Translations under genes and position numbers: made by a program
Notes under the pieces: generated by a model
What the model saw: the letters and a program-made list of their open reading frames with translations, nothing else
Told to the model about the DNA's origin: nothing
Databases searched by the model: none
Shown here: in pieces, positions 718 to 58,992 of the stretch
Numbering within the stretch: the first letter of the stretch is position 1
Layout of the letters: each line of letters starts with the position of its first letter
Virus record (IMG/VR): IMGVR_UViG_3300046792_000213
Span: 1 to 64,000 of that record
DNA from: a virus
Strand: one strand, 5' to 3'
DNA length: 64,000 nucleotides

Positions 718-1287
718 TCAGCCCAAACGGTCGTAGGCCCAGTTGTGGTAGAGCCGCCCGTCCGGGGCCACCATCGACGCGGGGATCGGCGGGTTCCAGT
801 CGACGAAAAGCCCGTGGCCCGATCTGAAGTCCAGCAGACCCTCCGCCTTCAACAGGCTCATGGCGTTGCCGACCGTGCGCGTACTGACGCCAGCCGCGGC
901 AGCGATCGCCTCGGCTGAGGGGATGCGCTGTTCCATGCGCCACCTGTCGGCGTCCATCTCGGCCCGCATGAGGTCGGCGACCTGCCCGGTCTTGTTCGAT
1001 CCACTGACGGGGCGCCAGTGGATCGGCATGGGGGCGTCGTCGTAGTTGTAGGTGCCGTTGTGACGGGGGTGCTCCGTCTGGATGGCGGCCTTCTCTGCTG
1101 CCAGCGCCTCCGGGCGACTGGGGTGCCACGTGATGTCGCGGCGGGTGACCTGGGAGATCCAGCGGGACCCGTTCATCCGGTGTTCTTCGAAGCGTAGTTT
1201 CGGGCGCTTGGAGACGCCGATGTAGAGCAGTCGGTCGTCGGCGTCGTAGAGGCGGTAGAGCGCGGTGCGCTCGGCGTTGGAGGGCAT
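718..1287 (-). CDS. GIY-YIG nuclease domain fused to GntR-type winged helix
   Basis: 189 aa. Residues 9-77 read as a GIY-YIG nuclease: ALYRLY then LYIG (22-24 YIG), an Arg cluster (R32, R37), E65 in EALAAEKAAI and N77, matching the expected order of catalytic residues. Residues about 100-175 form a GntR-type winged helix (IPSAEAIAAAAGVSTRTVGN, then LLKAEGLLDFRSGHGLFV). So one protein carries a potential DNA-cutting and a DNA-binding module. The ORF can be extended 18 codons upstream, but the shorter start is next to a GGAG-like sequence and the domain start. Role unknown: regulator with a repurposed nuclease fold, or a sequence-targeted nuclease. Confidence 0.8.
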   Translation of the reverse strand: MPSNAERTALYRLYDADDRLLYIGVSKRPKLRFEEHRMNGSRWISQVTRRDITWHPSRPEALAAEKAAIQTEHPRHNGTYNYDDAPMPIHWRPVSGSNKTGQVADLMRAEMDADRWRMEQRIPSAEAIAAAAGVSTRTVGNAMSLLKAEGLLDFRSGHGLFVDWNPPIPASMVAPDGRLYHNWAYDRLG

Positions 1288-7177: not shown

Positions 7178-8551
7178 GTGACCGGCCAGTCCACCAACGG
7201 GACCACCGTAAACGGCGCCATCCGGCCCCCGCGCGTGCCTGTGCTCGGGGACTGGCAGCCGATACGCCTCGGCGGCGTTCCCGCCATGATCACCGAGCCC
7301 GAGCCCGCCCCCGAGCCGATCGTCGAGCCCGTGACCGTCCCCTCCGACCCTGAGCCCCGCATCGACCACATCGCGCTCGCCGAAGCCGAGCGCATCCGGA
7401 CCCTTGCCGAGGCCGAGGCCGATGCAATCCGCGCCAAGGCAGTCGAGGAGGCCCGTAAGCAGCGCGTCATCAACGACCGTGCCGAGCGGAAAGCCGCCGA
7501 AGAGTCCGCAGCGTCTGCGGCCCGCATCGCCGAGAGCAACCGGCGCAAGACCGAGGCAGAGCGCACCACCGCCGACGCCGACAAGCAGGCCGCCGAGCAG
7601 CAGGCCGCCGAGCAGGCCGCCGCCGCCGAGATCAAGCACGCCGATGACAAATGGCGGCTCTACGCGATCTGGTTCGCGTTCGTCTGCGGCGTCGTCAGCC
7701 TGCCTGTGCAGATGTCGTTCTTCTGGAACCCGAAGGCGCCGTGGATGGCGGCGGCCCCGCTCATGCTCGAAGGCGCGGCGTGGGTCGTCCACCGCGGGGC
7801 TCGTGCGGCTGTCGCGAACCGGCGCCCGGTGTGGCACTACCGCACCATCGTGTGGCTCCTCGCGGTCCTGGCTGCCGGGGTGAACCTGTACCACGGACTT
7901 CACTCCTTCGATATCGGCACCGCGGTTGCGACGGCGTTCGCTTCGATTGCCGGCCCCGGGGTGTGGGACCTCCACGAGCACGGCCGCATCCGGAAGCGTG
8001 ACGGGGTCCTGACCCGTCGGGAGCGCAAAGTGCAGGAGCAGGCGGAGAAGGATGCCGCCGCCGAGAAGGCCGCGCGTGAGGCTTCCGCCCGGGCGGAGAA
8101 GGACGCCGCTGCGAAGGCCGCCGAGGAGGTCACGCAGAAGCTCGCCGCGGACCGCGGCGAGAGCTTCCCCGAGGTGTGGAAGCACGCCCTGAAACTGGCT
8201 GCCGCGCTCGGCGAAACCACCGTCACCGAGGCCGTCTGGCGTCGTGCCCACAAGGACGTCGAGGGCACCGACCCGGGCGACTCCGCGGAGGCTCAGCAAC
8301 TCCGCAACAAGGCCGCGCGGCGCATGCTCGATGCTCGCGCAGACGCCCCCGAAAAGAGCGTCTGGAAGGGCACAGAAACGGTCGTAAACGCACAGCGTGC
8401 AAACCAAATGCCCCGCACTCAGCGGGGGCCCGCACGGAAGCCCCCTGTGCGCCGTGTGGGTGACACCGAGCGGTACGTCGACGCGGCCCGCAAGCAGGCA
8501 TCCATCACCGCCAAGAACGCCACCGACACCACCCCGCGAGAGGACTTCTGA
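7178..8551 (+). CDS. DUF2637 / SpdB-like membrane protein
   Basis: 457 aa, GTG with AAAGGAG upstream. Residues 60-155 are an Ala/Glu/Arg coiled coil (IRTLAEAEADAIRAKAVEEA), residues about 160-265 hold four membrane segments (YAIWFAFVCGVVSLPVQMSF; APLMLEGAAWVV; IVWLLAVLAAGVNLYHGL; ATAFASIAGPGVW), and residues 280-457 are a charged cytoplasmic tail. DUF2637 proteins sit directly upstream of FtsK/TraB translocases in Streptomyces plasmids and integrative elements and resemble spread (Spd) proteins. The one-base gap to the FtsK gene supports co-function at the hyphal membrane during transfer. Confidence 0.8.
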   Translation: MTGQSTNGTTVNGAIRPPRVPVLGDWQPIRLGGVPAMITEPEPAPEPIVEPVTVPSDPEPRIDHIALAEAERIRTLAEAEADAIRAKAVEEARKQRVINDRAERKAAEESAASAARIAESNRRKTEAERTTADADKQAAEQQAAEQAAAAEIKHADDKWRLYAIWFAFVCGVVSLPVQMSFFWNPKAPWMAAAPLMLEGAAWVVHRGARAAVANRRPVWHYRTIVWLLAVLAAGVNLYHGLHSFDIGTAVATAFASIAGPGVWDLHEHGRIRKRDGVLTRRERKVQEQAEKDAAAEKAAREASARAEKDAAAKAAEEVTQKLAADRGESFPEVWKHALKLAAALGETTVTEAVWRRAHKDVEGTDPGDSAEAQQLRNKAARRMLDARADAPEKSVWKGTETVVNAQRANQMPRTQRGPARKPPVRRVGDTERYVDAARKQASITAKNATDTTPREDF

Positions 8552-8552
8552 G

Positions 8553-10595
8553 ATGGCTATCGACCACCTGCCCGACACGAGCGTCGAGGCCGTCGCCACC
8601 GTCCCGTCGGTGCCCGTGCAGAGCCCGTTCGTCGACCCCGACTACACCCCGGCCAAGCCCGCGCCGGCCCGCACCGGGTCCGCCGCCATGGTGGTCGCGA
8701 AGGCCACCGGGCGCGGCCTCGGAACCGGCACCCGCTGGGTCGTCACCGGGGTCGTACACAGTGCGCGTCAGTGGGTCGAGCTGTACCACGACGACTACCC
8801 CCAGATCGTCGCCCTCGCGGTTGCCGAACGGAAGGCCGTCAAGGACACCGCCGAGGCAGACGCGGCCAAGCTCGTCGTGAAGCAGTGGCGCCGCGAGCAC
8901 AAGCGGCACCGCCTCCAGCACCTCGGCCGGACCAGCCTCGGCACCCTCGCCACCGGCGGCACCCTCGCCATGGGCGGCCTCATCGTCGGCGGATGGCTCG
9001 ACCTGCTCCTCGCCGGTGTTGGCCTCGGCGCCACGGCATGGCACGGGCAGCGGGGCACGGGGTCTGCGGGAATCGAAGCCGAGCCCGAGCAGCAGGCGAT
9101 CGGCGCCGCCCTGCAGGGCGATGTCGTCAACGGCGGGGAGGCGCTTCTGGAGGCGTTCGCCGCCATCAAGGTCCCCGAGGGATCCCGTGTCGTGGCCCAC
9201 CAGCCCGGCCCGGACGACACGTCGGTCACCATCGTGAACCTGCCCGCGAACTTCACCGTCACCAGCCTCAAGGCCAAGACCGAGGAACTGGCGGGCGCCC
9301 TCGGCCGCGACGTCACCATGGTCGACATCCGCAAGGCCGGCCACGCCAACCAGGCCGCGGTCTGGCTGTCCAGCCGGGACCCTTTCGAGATTCCCCGCCC
9401 GTCACCGCTGCTCACCGGCAGCGCCGCCGTGGACGCCTGGCGGTACGGCATCGCCGTCGCGTGGAACAAGCGGGGCGAGCAGATTCTGCTGCCCATCACC
9501 AACTCGAACATCCTCATCGCCGGAATGACCCGCTCCGGCAAGGGCGTTGGGGCCGCCAACCTCACCGTCGGCGCCAGCCTCGACGTGCGCATCAACCTGC
9601 GGGTGGTGCCCGGCAAGATGAACGGCGAGTGGGACGCCTACGCCCGCGCCGGCGTCGCCAGCACTTACTTCAAGCCCGACCCGAAGCGACTCCTCGCCCT
9701 GCTGGAAGCCCTCAAGGCCGACAAGAACCGGCGCGAGGCCATCCTCGGCAAGCTCGGCAAGTCCAAGATGACCGCGGACACCATCGTCAAGCTCGGCGGC
9801 ATCGAACTCCTCATCATCGACGAACTGGCTACCTACACCCGGCCCGGCCGCCCGCTGCGTGACGAGATCCTCGAAGCCCTCATCGAACTGTCCGCGGTCG
9901 CTGCCGGGGCCGGCATCCTCATGGTGCTGATCACCCAGTACCCGGAGGCCGACGTCATCCCGCAGGCGTTGGCGATGAACTGCGGCACCCGGTGGGCTAT
10001 GCGCGTCGACAACGCGGGGCAGTCCAACGCGATCCTCGGCGGTGGCGCGTCCGGTTCCGGCCGGGACGCGTCCAAGTTCGACCCGCCCCGGCCGGGGCTC
10101 GGCTGGTTGGTCAACCCGTTCGCCAGCGTCACCGACCTCGCCCGGAGTTTCGACCTCGACGAGGACGACCGCGGCGAGATCACCCTGCTCCTGGAGCGGG
10201 CGGCACGACTCCGCGACAAGGCAGGCCGGCTGGTCGGCCAGTGGGACGACCCAATCGAGGCCACGTTGCAGCAGGAGACCGGCATGTCGTCGGCCGGCGG
10301 CGGGCCGGACCGCAACGGTGTCCCCGCCCGCCTCCTGCACCTGATGGACCCGCAGCAGGCCGCCGCCCACGAGGCGCTCACCGAGTGCGTCGAGGTCATG
10401 GACGCGTTCGGCCGGGACGCGCAGGTCGAGGAGGTGGCGGTGAAGCTGGGCATGCCGACGGAGCGGCTGAGTGAACTGCTGCGACTGGCCGGGGCCGGCT
10501 CCACCGTGAAGATCAACCACCCGGAGCGCGGGCGCGTGAACGGCTACCGCCGGGGCGACCTCACCGCGCTCCTCAACCGCGCCACAGCCGCCTGA
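8553..10595 (+). CDS. traB: FtsK/SpoIIIE-type DNA translocase (TraB-like transfer protein)
   Basis: 680 aa. Two hydrophobic segments at 127-165, a preceding basic region, then the motor: Walker A AGMTRSGKGVGA (about 323-334) and Walker B ELLIIDEL (about 418-425), followed by RWAMRVDNAGQSNAILGGG. The C-terminal 80 residues look like a winged helix (QVEEVAVKLGMPTERLSELL), the position where TraB proteins read clt/TRS sequences. Streptomyces TraB alone moves double-stranded plasmid DNA between hyphae. Its presence beside a full virion gene set is the oddest feature of the window. Alternative: a chromosome-type FtsK paralogue, less likely given the DUF2637 neighbour and size. The gene symbol is by role. 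Confidence 0.85.
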   Translation: MAIDHLPDTSVEAVATVPSVPVQSPFVDPDYTPAKPAPARTGSAAMVVAKATGRGLGTGTRWVVTGVVHSARQWVELYHDDYPQIVALAVAERKAVKDTAEADAAKLVVKQWRREHKRHRLQHLGRTSLGTLATGGTLAMGGLIVGGWLDLLLAGVGLGATAWHGQRGTGSAGIEAEPEQQAIGAALQGDVVNGGEALLEAFAAIKVPEGSRVVAHQPGPDDTSVTIVNLPANFTVTSLKAKTEELAGALGRDVTMVDIRKAGHANQAAVWLSSRDPFEIPRPSPLLTGSAAVDAWRYGIAVAWNKRGEQILLPITNSNILIAGMTRSGKGVGAANLTVGASLDVRINLRVVPGKMNGEWDAYARAGVASTYFKPDPKRLLALLEALKADKNRREAILGKLGKSKMTADTIVKLGGIELLIIDELATYTRPGRPLRDEILEALIELSAVAAGAGILMVLITQYPEADVIPQALAMNCGTRWAMRVDNAGQSNAILGGGASGSGRDASKFDPPRPGLGWLVNPFASVTDLARSFDLDEDDRGEITLLLERAARLRDKAGRLVGQWDDPIEATLQQETGMSSAGGGPDRNGVPARLLHLMDPQQAAAHEALTECVEVMDAFGRDAQVEEVAVKLGMPTERLSELLRLAGAGSTVKINHPERGRVNGYRRGDLTALLNRATAA

Positions 10596-10602
10596 AACAC
10601 CC

Positions 10603-10684
10603 CGGACAGGGGGCGGACAGCCGCGCAAACCCGCAGGTCACGGCCCGGACACTCGGTCGGACGGCGGGCGGACGGCGACCGGAC
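10603..10684. repeat. Phased CGGAC repeats after the FtsK/TraB gene (clt-like candidate)
   Basis: CGGAC occurs at 10603, 10614, 10646, 10658, 10669 and 10680; spacing is 11, 32, 12, 11 and 11 bp, so copies fall on one face of the helix. The array lies in the 237-bp gap right after the translocase gene, where Streptomyces plasmids often carry clt with short TraB recognition repeats. Binding is not shown; GC-rich low complexity could mimic it. Confidence 0.5.
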
Positions 10685-10717
10685 ACGTCCGCCCCTCGTC
10701 CGGGTCCCGCCCGGGTG

Positions 10718-10761
10718 GCAAACCGGGGCGAACCCGACAGGCATCCGGGGCGCAAACCGGG
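10718..10761. repeat. Direct repeat GCAAACCGGG
   Basis: Two exact 10-bp copies at 10718-10727 and 10752-10761, 34 bp apart, plus a related GCAAACCCG at 10625. They lie in the same gene-free gap as the CGGAC repeats and add to its appearance as a cis-acting locus. Confidence 0.4.
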
Positions 10762-10832
10762 ATTAACAACGCACGGTAACACCGGGGTCAGACCGACCCC
10801 GGACCACCCCAACCAAGATCGGAAGGAATCCC

Positions 10833-11548: not shown

Positions 11549-11561
11549 TCGGAGAAACCCC

Positions 11562-11621
11562 ATGCCCAAGCAGACCTACATCATCACCGCCCTCCGGCAC
11601 GTAGGCGACTACTCGTACTGA
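11562..11621 (+). CDS. 19-aa mini-protein with strong ribosome-binding site
   Basis: The leader GATCGGAGAAACCCC and ATG match those of the neighbouring genes, but the frame closes after 19 codons (MPKQTYIITALRHVGDYSY). It could be a true micro-protein, a leader peptide, or a gene truncated after its leader was retained. Confidence 0.45.
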   Translation: MPKQTYIITALRHVGDYSY

Positions 11622-11659
11622 ACGCCGCAGCCCCACTCGGCAAGATCGAAAGGACCCCC

Positions 11660-11857: not shown

Positions 11858-11859
11858 TC

Positions 11860-12306
11860 GTGGCATCCCTCGCGATCATCTCGTTCGGCTACCTGCACGG
11901 GACCCCACCAGACGCCCACATCACGGTCGACCTGCGCACCCACTTCCGAGACCCGCACTTCGACCCGGCGCTGCGGGACATGACCGCCCACGATTGGGAG
12001 ATCCGCGACACCGTCCTCAATACCCCCGGTATTCGCGCCCTCGTCGACGCCACCGTCGCCATGATCCGCGCCTACCAGGCCGCCCCCAGCCCCGCCCCGC
12101 TCACGGTCGCCGTGGGCTGTGCAGGAGGTAGGCATCGCGCTGCGGCATTTGCCATGGAGGTCGGAGCCCGGACGAGTGCCACTGTCACCCACCGCGACCT
12201 GACCAAACCCGTCATCAACCATCGAACCGAAAGGACCCCTCATGCCCCTCGACCTCACCGGCAAAGCCTGGGGCCGCAAGGTCATCCCCAAGTTCACCGA
12301 CGCTGA
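11860..12306 (+). CDS. RapZ C-terminal-domain-like protein
   Basis: 148 aa from GTG 11860. It matches the C-terminal domain of RapZ: FGYLHGTPPDAHITVDLRTH, DPALRDMTAHD, and the nucleotide/phosphate loop VAVGCAGGRHRAAAFA (RapZ: IGCTGGKHRS). The Walker-type N-terminal kinase domain of RapZ is absent. In Gram-negatives this domain binds small RNA and amino-sugar metabolites; stand-alone versions occur in actinobacterial mobile elements with unknown role. Its last 65 bp overlap the next gene in another frame, so the true end may be shorter or the overlap real. Confidence 0.75.
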   Translation: MASLAIISFGYLHGTPPDAHITVDLRTHFRDPHFDPALRDMTAHDWEIRDTVLNTPGIRALVDATVAMIRAYQAAPSPAPLTVAVGCAGGRHRAAAFAMEVGARTSATVTHRDLTKPVINHRTERTPHAPRPHRQSLGPQGHPQVHRR

Positions 12307-16160: not shown

Positions 16161-16814
16161 TCAGTTGCGGCGGCGGTCGGACAGCAGCGCGGGCTGCGTC
16201 GGTGTCGGCGATGGTGTCGGGTCGGGTGCCCCGTCCTGGCGGCACACCAGCGCATACGGGTCGTCGAGCGCGGGCTGCTGACTGTATCCGTCGGGGCAGG
16301 GCGAGCCGGGATCGCCTTTCTCGCCCTGCACGCCGGGCGCCCCGTCTTTCCCGTCCGCACCGTCCTTCCCGTCGACACCGTCGCGGCCGGCGGCGCCCGC
16401 CTGTCCGTCCGCGCCCGGAGTGCCCGCCGCACCGGGGAGCCCGGGCGCACCAGTCGCCCCCGGCTCGCCCTGCTGGCCCGGCACGCCAGGAACACCCTGC
16501 TCGCCCTGCGGCCCAGCGACTGGCACCGGCACCGCCGTGCGGTCCGGAAGATGAGGCACAGCCGAGGCCGGGTCCGGCGCGACCGGTGTCCCGCCGATCG
16601 CCTGAACCTGCGCCCGCAGAGCCCGCACGTCCCCAGTCAGGGTGGATACCGCCCCGCCCCGCAGGTCGGCCTCCGCGGCGGCGGCCTTGCGAGCGCCGAT
16701 CTCGTGATCGACTTTCGTCCAGATGATCAGGACGGCACCGCCAAGGGCGACGAGGACGCACGCGAGGAGCGCGCTGCGCCACCGGCGGGCGAGGGCTTGC
16801 TCCGCGCGGGTCAT
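16161..16814 (-). CDS. Membrane-anchored collagen-like protein
   Basis: 217 aa. N-terminal membrane helix at about 13-34 (WRSALLACVLVALGGAVLII), a short coiled-coil stem, then about 25 uninterrupted Gly-X-Y triplets (GPQGEQGVPGVPGQQGEPGA onward to GEKGDPGSPC), then a Cys-containing tail. Collagen-like repeats are usual in phage fibres and spore/phage surface proteins. Placed last in the lysis cluster and overlapping the holin-like gene by 4 bp; with a membrane anchor it may be a spanin-like or surface-display protein rather than a virion fibre. Confidence 0.75.
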   Translation of the reverse strand: MTRAEQALARRWRSALLACVLVALGGAVLIIWTKVDHEIGARKAAAAEADLRGGAVSTLTGDVRALRAQVQAIGGTPVAPDPASAVPHLPDRTAVPVPVAGPQGEQGVPGVPGQQGEPGATGAPGLPGAAGTPGADGQAGAAGRDGVDGKDGADGKDGAPGVQGEKGDPGSPCPDGYSQQPALDDPYALVCRQDGAPDPTPSPTPTQPALLSDRRRN

Positions 16815-41433: not shown

Positions 41434-41508
41434 TGGAATGCCCGGCAGGATTCGAACCCACGTCACCCGGGTTGGAGCCGGGTGTTCTCGCCGCTGAACT
41501 ACGGACAC
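41434..41508 (-). tRNA. tRNA-Trp (CCA anticodon)
   Basis: Acceptor GTGTCCG pairs with CGGGCAT (wobbles at two positions), D-arm GTTC/GAAC, anticodon stem CCCGG/CCGGG with loop CTCCAAC (anticodon CCA), T-arm with TTCGAAT loop. CCA is encoded at the 3' end. The discriminator is U rather than the usual bacterial G, so charging efficiency is uncertain. Confidence 0.8.
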
Positions 41509-41520
41509 AAGCAGGCCGCC

Positions 41521-41593
41521 GGCCCGCGGGGCGAAGTTCCGCGACTCGCCGGCGACCGCCCGAGGATGCTCTACCTACCTGAGCTACCAGCCA
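41521..41593 (-). pseudogene. tRNA-like fragment, 5' half intact
   Basis: The 5' part is normal (TGGCTGG, TAGCTCAGGTAGGTAGAGC D-arm), but beyond position 26 no anticodon stem or canonical T-loop can be formed: the sequence is replaced by GC-rich hairpin-forming DNA. Probably a decayed or recombined tRNA. Confidence 0.5.
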
Positions 41594-41612
41594 GACCGTG
41601 CACGATCCTGTT

Positions 41613-41641
41613 GTGGCCGGGCGGGACTTGAACCCGCGACC
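41613..41641 (-). pseudogene. tRNA-like fragment, 3' half only
   Basis: GCGGGTTCAAGTCCCGC forms a perfect T-arm followed by an acceptor-like CCGGCCA, with no matching D-arm or anticodon arm upstream. A 3' tRNA half can be debris or an attachment-site core. Confidence 0.5.
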
Positions 41642-41651
41642 TTCCCCTTCG

Positions 41652-41726
41652 TGGCAGCGACAGGATTTGAACCTGCGACCTCCGGGTTATGAGCCCGGCG
41701 AGCTGACCGACCTGCTCCACGCTGCT
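41652..41726 (-). tRNA. Initiator tRNA-fMet (CAT anticodon)
   Basis: Anticodon arm CGGGCTCATAACCCG carries the three consecutive G:C pairs of initiators; A11:U24 in the D-stem (GAGC/GCTC) and an unpaired 1:72 position (A:C) are the other two initiator signs. T-arm GCAGG-TTCAAAT-CCTGT and acceptor GCAGCG/CGCTGC complete the fold. The body closely follows bacterial fMet tRNA. CCA is not encoded. Confidence 0.85.
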
Positions 41727-47669: not shown

Positions 47670-48605
47670 TCAACCGGCCCGCTTCCCGCCCCCGCCACCG
47701 CGCTTGGTCGTGGTCTTCTTCCCTGCGGTCTTCTTGGCCGGTGCCTTCTTCTTTCCGGTGGCTTTGCGGTCGCCCATGTGGTGGACGTCGGCGTGATCGC
47801 CGGTTTCGCGCCGGTCCCGTGCTTGGTCGGCGGCGGCTTTGAGTGCGGCCATGAGGTCGAGCGGGCCGCCCTCCTCCTTGCCCTTTGCGGGCTCGGCGGC
47901 CTTCGGTGGGGCGTGATCCTCGGCCTTGGCCTCGATGAGGGCTGTGACGGCTGCGGCGTAGTCGTCGTGCATTTGGGCGAGGTCGATGTCGCCCACCACC
48001 CCGATGTAGTCGAGGGCGGCCTGGATCTCATCCTCGGTGAGGTCCACGTCCGTGCGGGGTCGAGCGTCATCAGCGGACCGCAGCTCGTCCGGCCAGTGCA
48101 GGCGCTGCAGCACCAGCACCTCACCCTGAGCGTGGATCACAGCCAGGGTCTCCCCCGTACCACGGAACGCCATCTTGCCAACGGCGCCCTTCCCCGCCCG
48201 GGCCAGGGCTTCACGCATCAGCACGTAGGGCTTGTTCGCCGCCGAGCTCTGGGCCGCCAGGAAATACGGGGTTCCGAACTGCTCCCCCGGGATCGCGCCG
48301 AGGTCCACGAAGCCGCTGATCTCCACCGTCTTCGCCGTGGGCAGAGGCAGGTCGTCCAGCTCCTGATCCGAGATCGGCACCAGGGTCCCGTCGGGAGCCT
48401 CGTAGGCCCGGCCGATCTCGTCCATGCCCAGCGGCTGCGTGTGATCGTCCATCTCCAGCTCGCACACCCGCCGGTTCCGCACCCGGCCGTGGTCCTCCAG
48501 GTGGATCTGCCGGAACCCGACCTTGTGGGAGTGGACGGCCGGCTCAACCCTGACAGGGATCGCGACCAGGCCGAAGGTCAAGGTTCCACTCCAGATGGCG
48601 GGCAT
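47670..48605 (-). CDS. ku: Ku homolog (non-homologous end joining)
   Basis: 311 aa from ATG 48605. Bacterial Ku core: MPAIWSGTLTFGLVAIPVRV, then VGFRQIHLEDHGRVRNRRVC, EIGRAYEAPDGTLVPISDQE, PYVLMREALARAGKGAVGKM and HWPDELRSADD. It ends in a Lys-rich tail (TGKKKAPAKKTAGKKTTTKR) as in extended actinobacterial Ku proteins. Binds broken DNA ends and recruits LigD; no ligase is encoded here, so host LigD would be used. Ku in mycobacteriophages Omega and Corndog helps circularise short-overhang genomes, a possible role here. Confidence 0.93.
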   Translation of the reverse strand: MPAIWSGTLTFGLVAIPVRVEPAVHSHKVGFRQIHLEDHGRVRNRRVCELEMDDHTQPLGMDEIGRAYEAPDGTLVPISDQELDDLPLPTAKTVEISGFVDLGAIPGEQFGTPYFLAAQSSAANKPYVLMREALARAGKGAVGKMAFRGTGETLAVIHAQGEVLVLQRLHWPDELRSADDARPRTDVDLTEDEIQAALDYIGVVGDIDLAQMHDDYAAAVTALIEAKAEDHAPPKAAEPAKGKEEGGPLDLMAALKAAADQARDRRETGDHADVHHMGDRKATGKKKAPAKKTAGKKTTTKRGGGGGKRAG

Positions 48606-49987: not shown

Positions 49988-51043
49988 TCACAGTCCGATC
50001 CCTCTCATCGGGTTCTCCTCGTGGGCGTCGACCGCGCGGATGTACTCGAGCACCTGCGGCGAGCCTTCAGCCCAGCGACCCTGAGCTCGGATGGCCGAGA
50101 TGGGCGCGCGCTTCTTGTACGCCTCGGCAGCCCCGCCGGCACGGAAGCCGTGGGCGGTGTAGACGAGGTTGTCTTTCGGGAGGACCCGGGTAGCGCGTCG
50201 CTGGACCATCTCGTTGATGGCGTCCCCGGACATGGTGTCGCCCGTGATCACGTCCCATCGGTTGATGGAGCGGAGGAGTCGCCCCGTGGTGATGCCGCGC
50301 TCGAGCAGCGCTTGGCGGTAGGCGCGGACGACGCGGATGGGGTCGGTGTCGTTGTGGATCCCTCGAGGGACGACGACTTCCTCTCCGGCGCCTTCCTGGT
50401 CGGTCTTGGAGGTCCGGATGAGGATGGTGAGGTCGCCTTCGTCGTCTTCGACGATGTCCTCGATGTGGAGCCCTGCGAGTTCGGAGCGGCGGGCCATCAT
50501 GGCGAAGCCGAGGATGAAGATGGTGCGGTCACGGAGGCCGGACAGCGTCTCGAGGTCGCAGTCCTCGATCAGCAGGCGCAGTTTGACCAGGCCGATGGCG
50601 GGCGCCTTGCGTTTCCGGGTGCCGCTTTCGGCGCGCTTCTTCCGGTAGCCCTTGAGGACGCGTCGGGCTTCACCGGTCTCGGGCTGGTGTGGATGGCCGG
50701 CCACCTTGTGGGCGGAGCGGATGACGGCAATGGCTTGCTCGATGCTCGAGGGCGCCAGTGGGCGGCCGGTGCTCGAGGGGGTGGTCGTGAGGTGGGTGAC
50801 GTACTCCCACAGGGTTCTGGCGGTTGCCGGGAGGGGGACGCGTCCTCGATCGGCGCACCACTTGGTGAAGGTGTCCCACTGGCGGCTGTATGCGCGCTGG
50901 GTGTTGTCGGGGATTGATTCCTCGAGGGCGCGAAGCGCTTCGTCGGAGACGTAGTGGTCTCGCTCGGTGTGGACGGCCGCTGGGACCGGTGCTCGCGGGG
51001 CTGGGAGATGGGGTCCGACGGAGGACTCGAGGGGTTCGCTCAT
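49988..51043 (-). CDS. int: Tyrosine recombinase / integrase
   Basis: 351 aa. N-terminal SAM-like core-binding region (NTQRAYSRQWDTFTKWCADR) and C-terminal catalytic domain with R185 in ARRSELAGL, K213 in TSKTDQEG, H298/R301 in TAHGFRAGG, W324 in GRWAEGS and Y334 in VLEYIRAV. All catalytic positions are present, so it should be active. It resembles phage/plasmid integrases that lack the long arm-binding domain. No attP with a tRNA end is evident next to it. CTCGAG clusters in this gene and the two after it. Confidence 0.9.
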   Translation of the reverse strand: MSEPLESSVGPHLPAPRAPVPAAVHTERDHYVSDEALRALEESIPDNTQRAYSRQWDTFTKWCADRGRVPLPATARTLWEYVTHLTTTPSSTGRPLAPSSIEQAIAVIRSAHKVAGHPHQPETGEARRVLKGYRKKRAESGTRKRKAPAIGLVKLRLLIEDCDLETLSGLRDRTIFILGFAMMARRSELAGLHIEDIVEDDEGDLTILIRTSKTDQEGAGEEVVVPRGIHNDTDPIRVVRAYRQALLERGITTGRLLRSINRWDVITGDTMSGDAINEMVQRRATRVLPKDNLVYTAHGFRAGGAAEAYKKRAPISAIRAQGRWAEGSPQVLEYIRAVDAHEENPMRGIGL

Positions 51044-51786: not shown

Positions 51787-52232
51787 TTGGCACCCCCTGA
51801 GGCGACGGCCGCAGCGACGATGATCCACCCTTTGTGCCAGGCCTGGTCCATGAGGTAGCCGGCACCTGGGTCTCGTTCGAGCCATCCGGCGTGTCCGGTG
51901 TTTGCAGCGAGGCGGACGATTCCGCGGGGGTGCTTGTCTCGCCAGCGGCCGCCTTGCCGGTCGGCGATGTAGTGGGTGGCGGCGGAGATGGCGAGTGCTG
52001 CTGCTGCGCAGCCGGGGGTGAGGCGGAGTCCGAGGAGGCGTTGCCCGGCCAGGAGGGTGGCGGCTTGGGTGGCGGTGTAGGTGGCGACGTGCTTGGCGCA
52101 GGCTCGGGCGCCTTCCGGGCCAGGCTTCCCCTTCACGGTGGCTTGTGAATCGACTTGCACCCAGTGGTCGGCGACCTCGTGGGATGCGGTGAGGAGGGCG
52201 TAGGTGGCGGCGAATCGGGCGGTGGTGGTCAC
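51783..52232 (-). CDS. Small integral membrane protein
   Basis: 149 aa, GTG. HEVADHWVQVDSQATVKG near the start, then hydrophobic helices (TQAATLLAGQRLLGLRLTPG; CAAAALAISAATHYIADRQG; GWIIVAAAVASG). His/Asp motif HxxxD-W recalls the DUF3307-type membrane proteins. Function unknown. Confidence 0.6.
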   Translation of the reverse strand: MTTTARFAATYALLTASHEVADHWVQVDSQATVKGKPGPEGARACAKHVATYTATQAATLLAGQRLLGLRLTPGCAAAALAISAATHYIADRQGGRWRDKHPRGIVRLAANTGHAGWLERDPGAGYLMDQAWHKGWIIVAAAVASGGAK

Positions 52233-58015: not shown

Positions 58016-58992
58016 CCTGCGGTTCCTTCCTGCTGCATGCGGGCTTGGGCGCGCTGCATTGCGCGACCGAAGAGGTCGTCGGTCTCCTGCTGCTGGCGGT
58101 TGGTTGCCTGACGGAGCGGTACGACTTCGCCGTTGGAGTCGGCTGGGGTGTCGGCGAGGGATTCCCATCGGCCGATCCATGCGGTGACGCTGTCGGGTTC
58201 GCCTCGTCGCTCTGCGGCGAGGCTGGCGGAGCGGACCATGACGGGGATGCCGAGGCGGTCGACCTGGATGCGGATGCGCTCCCAGTCGGTGAACTTCTTG
58301 ATGTCCCATGCGACGGCGCCGAGGCCGGCTTCGGCGAGGGCGGTTCGGAGCGGCTGGAGTGCGTTGGGAACGCCGCCGGTTGCCGCCGGGTTGCTGCTGC
58401 TAGCAGCAGTTCTTCCGTAGGAAGAACTGGTAGGGGACGGGGCAGGGGACGGGGTGCCGTTATTAACGGCGTTACGAATCTCGCCGACCTGGGGTGATGC
58501 GTTTTTTGCGGGGGTGTCTTTTTTCGAGTTCGTGTCGTCTTCGTGTCGCGTTGCTGTCGCGTTCGTGTCGCTGGAGGGCTCCGAAGCGTGGTCCGTAACG
58601 CCGTTACGCATGGCGTCACGCACCGCCTTCTCCGCGGCAGCCTTCGCTTCCTTCTCGGCCTTCTTCCGGTCGCGCCACGCCTGCTGCCGGGCTGCGTTCG
58701 CCTCCCGTTCGGCCTGGACCTTGGCGCGGTCCGGGTTGTACTCCAGGAAGTCGTGGATGACCCAGCCGCCGGCGACCCGGTCCCACAGTTGCCTGTCTTC
58801 CAGTTCCTTGGCGGCCGTCTTGGCACCGCGGACGTGGGCGATGACGCGCAGCTCTGATTCGAGGATCTTGCCCTCGGTCAGATTCTCCGAGGCCCAGCAC
58901 AGCGCGGAGACGTGCAGCCGGAAGGCGCGGTCGGACAGCAGCGCCACCTTGCGGTGCGATGGAAAGCGGTCATCCAGGCGGACCCAGGGCAT
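58012..58992 (-). CDS. Phage replication initiator-like protein
   Basis: 326 aa. N-terminal winged-helix (MPWVRLDDRFPSHRKVALLS; ELRVIAHVRGAKTAAKELED; WVIHDFLEYNPDRAKVQAER) as in DnaD-like initiators, a basic Lys/Glu coil, a low-complexity linker (DTNATATRHEDDTNSKKDTP) and a C-terminal domain with WDIKKFTDWERIRIQVDRLG. Likely binds the origin and recruits host replication. Divergent from the regulator at 59195, with repeats between. Confidence 0.75.
   Translation of the reverse strand: MPWVRLDDRFPSHRKVALLSDRAFRLHVSALCWASENLTEGKILESELRVIAHVRGAKTAAKELEDRQLWDRVAGGWVIHDFLEYNPDRAKVQAEREANAARQQAWRDRKKAEKEAKAAAEKAVRDAMRNGVTDHASEPSSDTNATATRHEDDTNSKKDTPAKNASPQVGEIRNAVNNGTPSPAPSPTSSSYGRTAASSSNPAATGGVPNALQPLRTALAEAGLGAVAWDIKKFTDWERIRIQVDRLGIPVMVRSASLAAERRGEPDSVTAWIGRWESLADTPADSNGEVVPLRQATNRQQQETDDLFGRAMQRAQARMQQEGTAG

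Follow-up and report, generated by a model that had tools for sequence, protein, structure and literature searches.

A phased CGGAC repeat array beside a TraB-like translocase gene on a phage-like element: a candidate clt locus

The locus and its phage-like setting

The DNA analysed here (hereafter ‘the window’) comprises positions 1–64000 of a 76,393-bp virus record, and contains a gene module in which a GntR/UTRA regulator, an SpdB2-like membrane protein and a TraB-like DNA translocase are followed by a non-coding gap of 237 bp with 71% G+C (Table 1). The SpdB2-like protein is 30% identical to SpdB2 of plasmid pSVH1 over 218 columns (E 3e-9), while the GntR/UTRA protein is 30% identical to the pSVH1 GntR regulator (E 4e-25) and presumably acts as a repressor of the transfer operon. 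Beside the GntR/UTRA gene lie a gene that joins a GIY-YIG nuclease domain to a GntR helix-turn-helix (718–1287, minus strand) and an adjoining UTRA-only gene (2201–2758).

The translocase carries a Walker A motif (GMTRSGKG, residue 324) and a Walker B-like motif (LLIIDE, residue 419) and aligns with pSVH1 TraB (E 9e-29). A profile of 27 relatives matches FtsK chains (E 3.8e-18), and the predicted structure finds its best matches among FtsK motor domains (E 9e-15); the FtsK-type assignment rests on this profile and fold, as Pfam FtsK_SpoIIIE gives the single sequence 17.9 bits, below its cut-off. The NCBIfam plasmid_TraB equivalog (NF041214, cut-off 800 bits) does not match the window translocase at E 0.01, a model that we consider narrow because pSVH1 TraB itself scores only 41 bits against it. 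The last 84 residues of the protein are predicted by AlphaFold2 to form a winged helix (H-H-H-strand-strand-H, most of it at pLDDT above 90), in which PTERLSELLR (10458–10487) would be the recognition helix, alpha3. By VIA-align the best matches to this model (Z 8.0–8.9) are the winged-helix domains of Rex-type repressors; FtsK gamma-domain structures are not among the fold matches listed for it, which does not exclude such a relationship.

Table 1. Features of the transfer module and of the gap that follows the translocase gene (window coordinates)
Feature	Position	Strand	Basis or remark
GntR/UTRA protein	1440–2201	−	Pfam GntR 6.8e-14, UTRA 2.5e-22
SpdB2-like membrane spread protein	7286–8551	+	start uncertain, 7043 or 7286
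FtsK/SpoIIIE-type DNA translocase (TraB-like), 680 aa	8553–10595	+	profile and fold
C-terminal winged-helix domain, predicted (CT residues 27–110)	10341–10592	+	AlphaFold2 with 8 relatives
Candidate clt, entire non-coding gap	10596–10832	+	between translocase stop (10595) and next likely start (10833)
CGGAC direct copies 1–2	10603–10618	+	starts 10603, 10614
GCAGGTCA box within the 32-bp interruption of the CGGAC array	10633–10640	+
CGGAC direct copies 3–6	10646–10684	+	starts 10646, 10658, 10669, 10680; spacings 12-11-11
Dyad centre CGGAC-AC-GTCCG	10680–10691	.	
Inverted copies GTCCG	10687–10702	−	at 10687 and 10698, 11 bp apart
GCAAACCGGG copies, strand-oriented CAAACC element	10718–10761	+	at 10718 and 10752
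Seventh CGGAC, outside main array	10800–10804	+	in hairpin CCGGGGTC/GACCCCGG (10782–10802)

Elsewhere in the window, minus-strand genes encode a terminase (TerL), a portal with head morphogenesis, a head protease, a minor tail protein, a tape measure, a GH25 lysin and a KilAC antirepressor. The terminase, portal, tape-measure and lysin genes place the clt candidate on a phage-like element, one with structural and packaging genes such as mark a pZL12-like Streptomyces phage-plasmid. A terminase or portal family match is found in 21 of the 37 virus records that carry the translocase (the window record included, and among them the 92.6-kb record L062), and CP042280 (L007) is a circular plasmid with both a translocase relative and a terminase homologue. 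A Pfam scan covering part of the window ORFs gave a weak integrase-like match at 49988–51043 and, among the ORFs scanned, no Par or Rep match. A conjugation function on a phage-like record is unusual, and this counts against a clt at this position. Plasmid-phages carrying transfer genes are already known, for example pZL12 (PMC4487206), so the combination of phage and transfer gene is not new in kind; unlike that combination, the translocase family itself is absent from the annotated phage collection, as tblastn against 50,697 phage records, ZL12 included, returned no homologue. The relatives used below were for this reason taken from plasmids, genomes and viral contigs. We also note in the window a phage-borne Ku-like protein (47670–48605, minus strand; Pfam Ku, E 4e-34), a collagen-like Gly-X-Y repeat protein read from its translation within the phage structural region (16161–16814, minus strand), and genes for tRNA-Trp and tRNA-Met close to the packaging genes (41434–41726, minus strand).

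Repeat architecture and phasing

As the first-pass annotation of this DNA had described, the gap holds six direct copies of CGGAC at spacings of 11, 32, 12, 11 and 11 bp, together with a repeated GCAAACCGGG. That description stands for the direct copies, and missed the inverted arm that makes the array a dyad, the conserved GCAGGTCA box and the phage-like nature of the element; its further statement that this is the only real gap after the translocase gene does not hold, as the gene calls leave others (e.g. 11549–11659 and 11858–12241). Counted on both strands, CGGAC occurs nine times in the gap, against a maximum of six and a mean of 1.2 in other 237-bp stretches of the window, so that the repeats are not equally frequent elsewhere in it, the outcome that had been named as fatal to the idea of a TraB target. 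Dinucleotide shuffles of the gap contain on average 2.5 copies, and none of 2000 reaches nine; likewise, the 17 pairs of identical 5-mers at 10–12 bp in the gap compare with a shuffle mean of 2.4 and are reached by none of the 2000. Nine copies of a 5-mer are not in themselves rare here – some 5-mer is present at least nine times in 4% of stretches of this GC-rich DNA – and the signal is therefore one of phasing and of a specific motif, not of repetition alone. Copies 3–6 are the sole run of four CGGAC at 10–12 bp anywhere in the record, and GCAAACC, present only five times in the window, has three of its copies in the gap (10625, 10718 and 10752). Other four-copy 5-mer runs at 11–12 bp, of TGTCG (58533–58570) and TGGCG (52058–52098), fall in predicted coding sequence. 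The array is phased as first proposed, although its placement on one helix face is only approximate, the six direct copies drifting by about 120 degrees at 10.5 bp per turn.

The arrangement is conserved in register in two close relatives, L061 and L054, whose translocases are respectively 72.6% and 83.3% identical to that of the window over the aligned part. The direct copies are spaced 12-32-12-11-11 in the former and 11-34-12-11-11 in the latter, each gap has three inverted copies at the register of the window, and in a three-way alignment the GGAC cores are kept while the spacers vary. Phasing extends across the family: in 72 non-redundant gaps drawn from relatives in Streptomyces genomes, plasmids and viral contigs, the distances between identical 6-mers, when pooled, show a 10.8-bp period whose power is 0.58, against 0.09 at the end of the tra gene, 0.12 in DNA further downstream and 0.18 in the best of 300 block shuffles. 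A pair of identical 6-mers at 10–11 bp is found in 62 of the 72 gaps and in 6 of 72 coding controls. The repeat itself varies by subfamily, being CCCGGAC, CCTGCTCG, ACCCTGCC, CCGTGATCACGG, GGTCTGACA or others. More distant chromosomal FtsK-type genes (L013, L014, L035–L039) are followed by palindromic repeats containing CTAG, which are possibly the clt sites of integrated elements.

Two further elements are shared more widely than the main repeat. Exact GCAGGTCA occurs on either strand in 34 of the 72 gaps, as compared with two of 72 end-of-gene and one of 72 downstream controls, mostly about 37–49 bp (forward) or 116–150 bp (reverse) into the gap, and often with an inverted partner, TGACCTGC, about 90–100 bp further on. 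In 40 of the 72 gaps the second half contains CAAAC, always on the coding strand; the opposite strand and the coding controls have none. As GCAGGTCA and CAAACC are common to subfamilies with unrelated main repeats, it is probably not the variable domain discussed below that reads them; our guess is that they are bound by a host factor or are promoter-proximal. No paper turned up in a full-text literature search for GCAGGTCA together with Streptomyces and plasmid. Both elements are unaccounted for by a model in which TraB binds the array, and this counts against the explanation that we favour.

Coupling to the C-terminal domain, and competing explanations

Across the 72 loci, motif similarity is correlated with C-terminal identity when motor identity is held constant (partial r 0.54, permutation p 0.001); control for downstream similarity leaves this value at 0.52. 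The reverse does not hold: with the C-terminus held constant, motif similarity is not correlated with motor identity (partial r −0.12). The motif thus follows the winged-helix domain and not the motor, as predicted for a TraB target. When 35 loci were first compared by k-mer vectors left uncentred, motor and C-terminus were inseparable, both with partial r about 0.25; the later run differs in its added viral relatives and centred vectors, and also as to rank versus linear correlation. Individual pairs of loci are striking in this respect. L080 and L081 have motors 98% and C-termini 14% identical, with unrelated repeats and similar downstream DNA; L019 and L072 have motors 96% and C-termini 13% identical, again with unrelated repeats; and L026 and L028 represent a further exchange, also flanked by similar downstream DNA. 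The motors of these three pairs span 84–98% identity while C-termini and repeats are unrelated, and from their sequences we read them as natural cassette swaps. The window shares 66–68% of its motor, and neither C-terminus nor repeat, with L007, L057 and L059, the L057 array being one of CTGCTCG copies; a frameshift interrupts the translocase gene in the records of L007 (CP042280) and L018, and the intact L057 and L059 agree. Conversely, the window and pSVH1 clades have otherwise dissimilar C-termini (12–24%), yet alpha3 T-x-E-(R/K)-L and the repeat CCCGGAC are common to both.

Taken together, these observations suggest that the phased array at 10596–10832 is a clt-type docking site of the adjacent TraB-like translocase, a candidate assignment to which we give a probability of roughly 0.87 on the strength of sequence and analogy. 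Several of the features that characterize Streptomyces TraB/clt systems are represented: an FtsK/SpoIIIE-type motor beside the site, a winged helix predicted at its C-terminus, a module that includes spd genes and a GntR regulator, short (5–9 bp) repeated motifs in a non-coding site, and a repeat that computation (partial correlation and natural swaps) indicates to be specific to the cognate C-terminal domain. The proposal that the array is a TraB target therefore gains support from position, gene neighbourhood, repeat type and spacing, which are as in the pSVH1 clt, and from a motif that tracks the C-terminal domain. By analogy with pSVH1 and pWTY27, the C-terminal winged helix of each translocase subunit would read one CGGAC-centred repeat through its recognition helix, and about six direct and two inverted repeats, near one helical turn apart, would align the subunits on the DNA. 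The aligned subunits could then nucleate and load a hexameric motor at this one site, which, aided by the Spd proteins, would most likely pump the element as double-stranded DNA into a neighbouring hypha through the septum or the tip membrane. Any role of the array in the phage life cycle would likewise be conjectural.

Scans for terminators, promoters, Rfam families and tandem repeats brought up no competing explanation for the gap, and the four alternatives that we weighed are all improbable. The one that survives best, a slim chance in our view, is that the gap acts as RNA, folding into a terminator or attenuator ahead of the small downstream genes, with repeats that derive from stem constraints. 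The dyad does form long RNA stems, and the gap folds with a z of −2.85, better than any shuffle; however, the region has no T-tract terminator on the plus strand, the gap has no Rfam match, and RNA pairing predicts neither the 10.8-bp period, nor the direct repeats outside the stem, nor the coupling to the C-terminal domain. Slimmer still is the prospect that a Rep or Par protein binds the repeats as iterons, the gap then being a replication origin or partition site. The array does look iteron-like in its phased direct and inverted copies, and the pWTY27 origin likewise has direct and inverted repeats (PMC3583192), but in that plasmid origin and clt are separate loci (PMC3583192), the pSVH1 rep gene lies more than 2 kb beyond the gap, no rep or par gene was identified beside the window gap among the ORFs scanned, and from one subfamily to another the repeat changes together with the translocase C-terminus.

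It is hardly credible that the repeats are operators of another regulator, either the GntR/UTRA protein or a small downstream protein: GntR regulators are indeed encoded in the same module, but the GntR gene lies 8 kb from the gap in divergent orientation, and repeat swaps alter only the translocase C-terminus and the gap while motor and downstream gene stay similar. Because domain and gap adjoin, linkage could mimic the coupling between them, and part of the covariation may be shared inheritance by recombination, within limits set by the downstream control and by the contrast between spacers and repeats. At 45–60% C-terminal identity, 67% of repeated 6-mers are retained as compared with 21% of single-copy 6-mers and a coding background of 14–19%, and such conservation of repeats while spacers diverge argues against simple hitchhiking. 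That linkage is the whole explanation, with recombination swapping the gene end together with adjacent, functionless repeats, is the least probable alternative of all: domain and gap were clearly exchanged together in some pairs, but the repeats are three times as well conserved as single-copy sequence of the gap, keep their register while spacers vary, and in pSVH1 are reported in the accounts cited here to be bound by TraB (PMC3583192, PMC4170104).

Read as a clt, the site is of a known kind, and what is of interest is the family-wide rule and the phage context. We consider the chances about even that Streptomyces TraB-type conjugation is more generally a modular code, in which a winged helix and a phased dyad array are swapped as a cassette onto near-unchanged motors, giving rise to many transfer specificities. 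A broad class of Streptomyces phage-like elements, in many of which the GCAGGTCA box would mark a host or common factor, would then carry the cassette and could spread both by double-stranded conjugation and as virions. The rule itself – a 10.8-bp-phased dyad directly after the tra gene, its motif following the C-terminal helix – allows clt sites to be predicted from sequence in dozens of elements, and the natural domain-swap pairs with nearly identical motors provide material for working out the protein–DNA code. It also makes testable whether Streptomyces phages move by conjugation as well, and whether elements resident in one cell can use one another's pumps.

Comparison with known transfer and translocase systems

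In Escherichia coli, the FtsK motor is guided by short, oriented KOPS sequences through its C-terminal winged helix. The window system similarly combines an FtsK-type motor, short DNA sites and a C-terminal winged helix (here predicted), but KOPS are dispersed over the chromosome, whereas the sites in the window form one compact phased array. Closer to the phage context, pZL12 (phage ZL12, NC_013420) is, like the window element, a Streptomyces element joining phage structural genes to transfer genes; its transfer genes are of another type, and a homologue of the window translocase was not found in the phage collection that includes ZL12.

Among Streptomyces plasmids, the clt repeats of pIJ101 are given as the 5-bp ‘GC/AAAC’ (PMC3583192), which by description recalls the GCAAAC of the window. 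Also by description, the clt loci of pIJ101 and pJV1 resemble the window array in having short direct repeats plus an inverted repeat, but pIJ101 clt lies near korB and not after tra, and the repeats differ. In pWTY27 the clt takes in 16 bp of the traA 3′ end and the adjacent 159 bp and is footprinted by TraA, and deletions within it cut transfer 10- to about 1000-fold (PMC3583192). As in the window, a non-coding array of repeats directly adjoins the 3′ end of one FtsK-like tra gene. Unlike the window, pWTY27 is a small theta plasmid with TGACACC and CCCGCCC repeats, and part of its clt is coding.

In the pSVH1 record (L041), copies of GACCCGGA, which we take to be the TRS repeat bound by TraB, occur at 7327, 7349, 7381 and 7402 and, inverted, at 7418, with spacings of 22, 32 and 21 bp between the direct copies; these five all lie inside the gap after traB, and two further copies lie elsewhere. 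For this Streptomyces venezuelae plasmid, TraB is reported to use alpha3 of its winged helix in binding 8-bp repeats (Vogelmann et al., 2011, as cited in PMC3583192 and PMC4170104). The window translocase is only 29% identical to TraB, its repeat reads CGGAC with a tighter spacing (11 bp, as opposed to about 21–22 bp), and the array is located on a phage-like element where pSVH1 is a 12.7-kb plasmid. Nevertheless, the site follows directly on the translocase gene in both, in gaps of similar length (228 bp in pSVH1, 237 bp in the window) and in the same gene order of GntR, small genes, SpdB2, TraB and gap, with homologous proteins. The repeats overlap in a CCGGA core, are spaced at roughly multiples of 11 bp, and are arranged as a direct arm followed by an inverted arm in pSVH1 and window alike.
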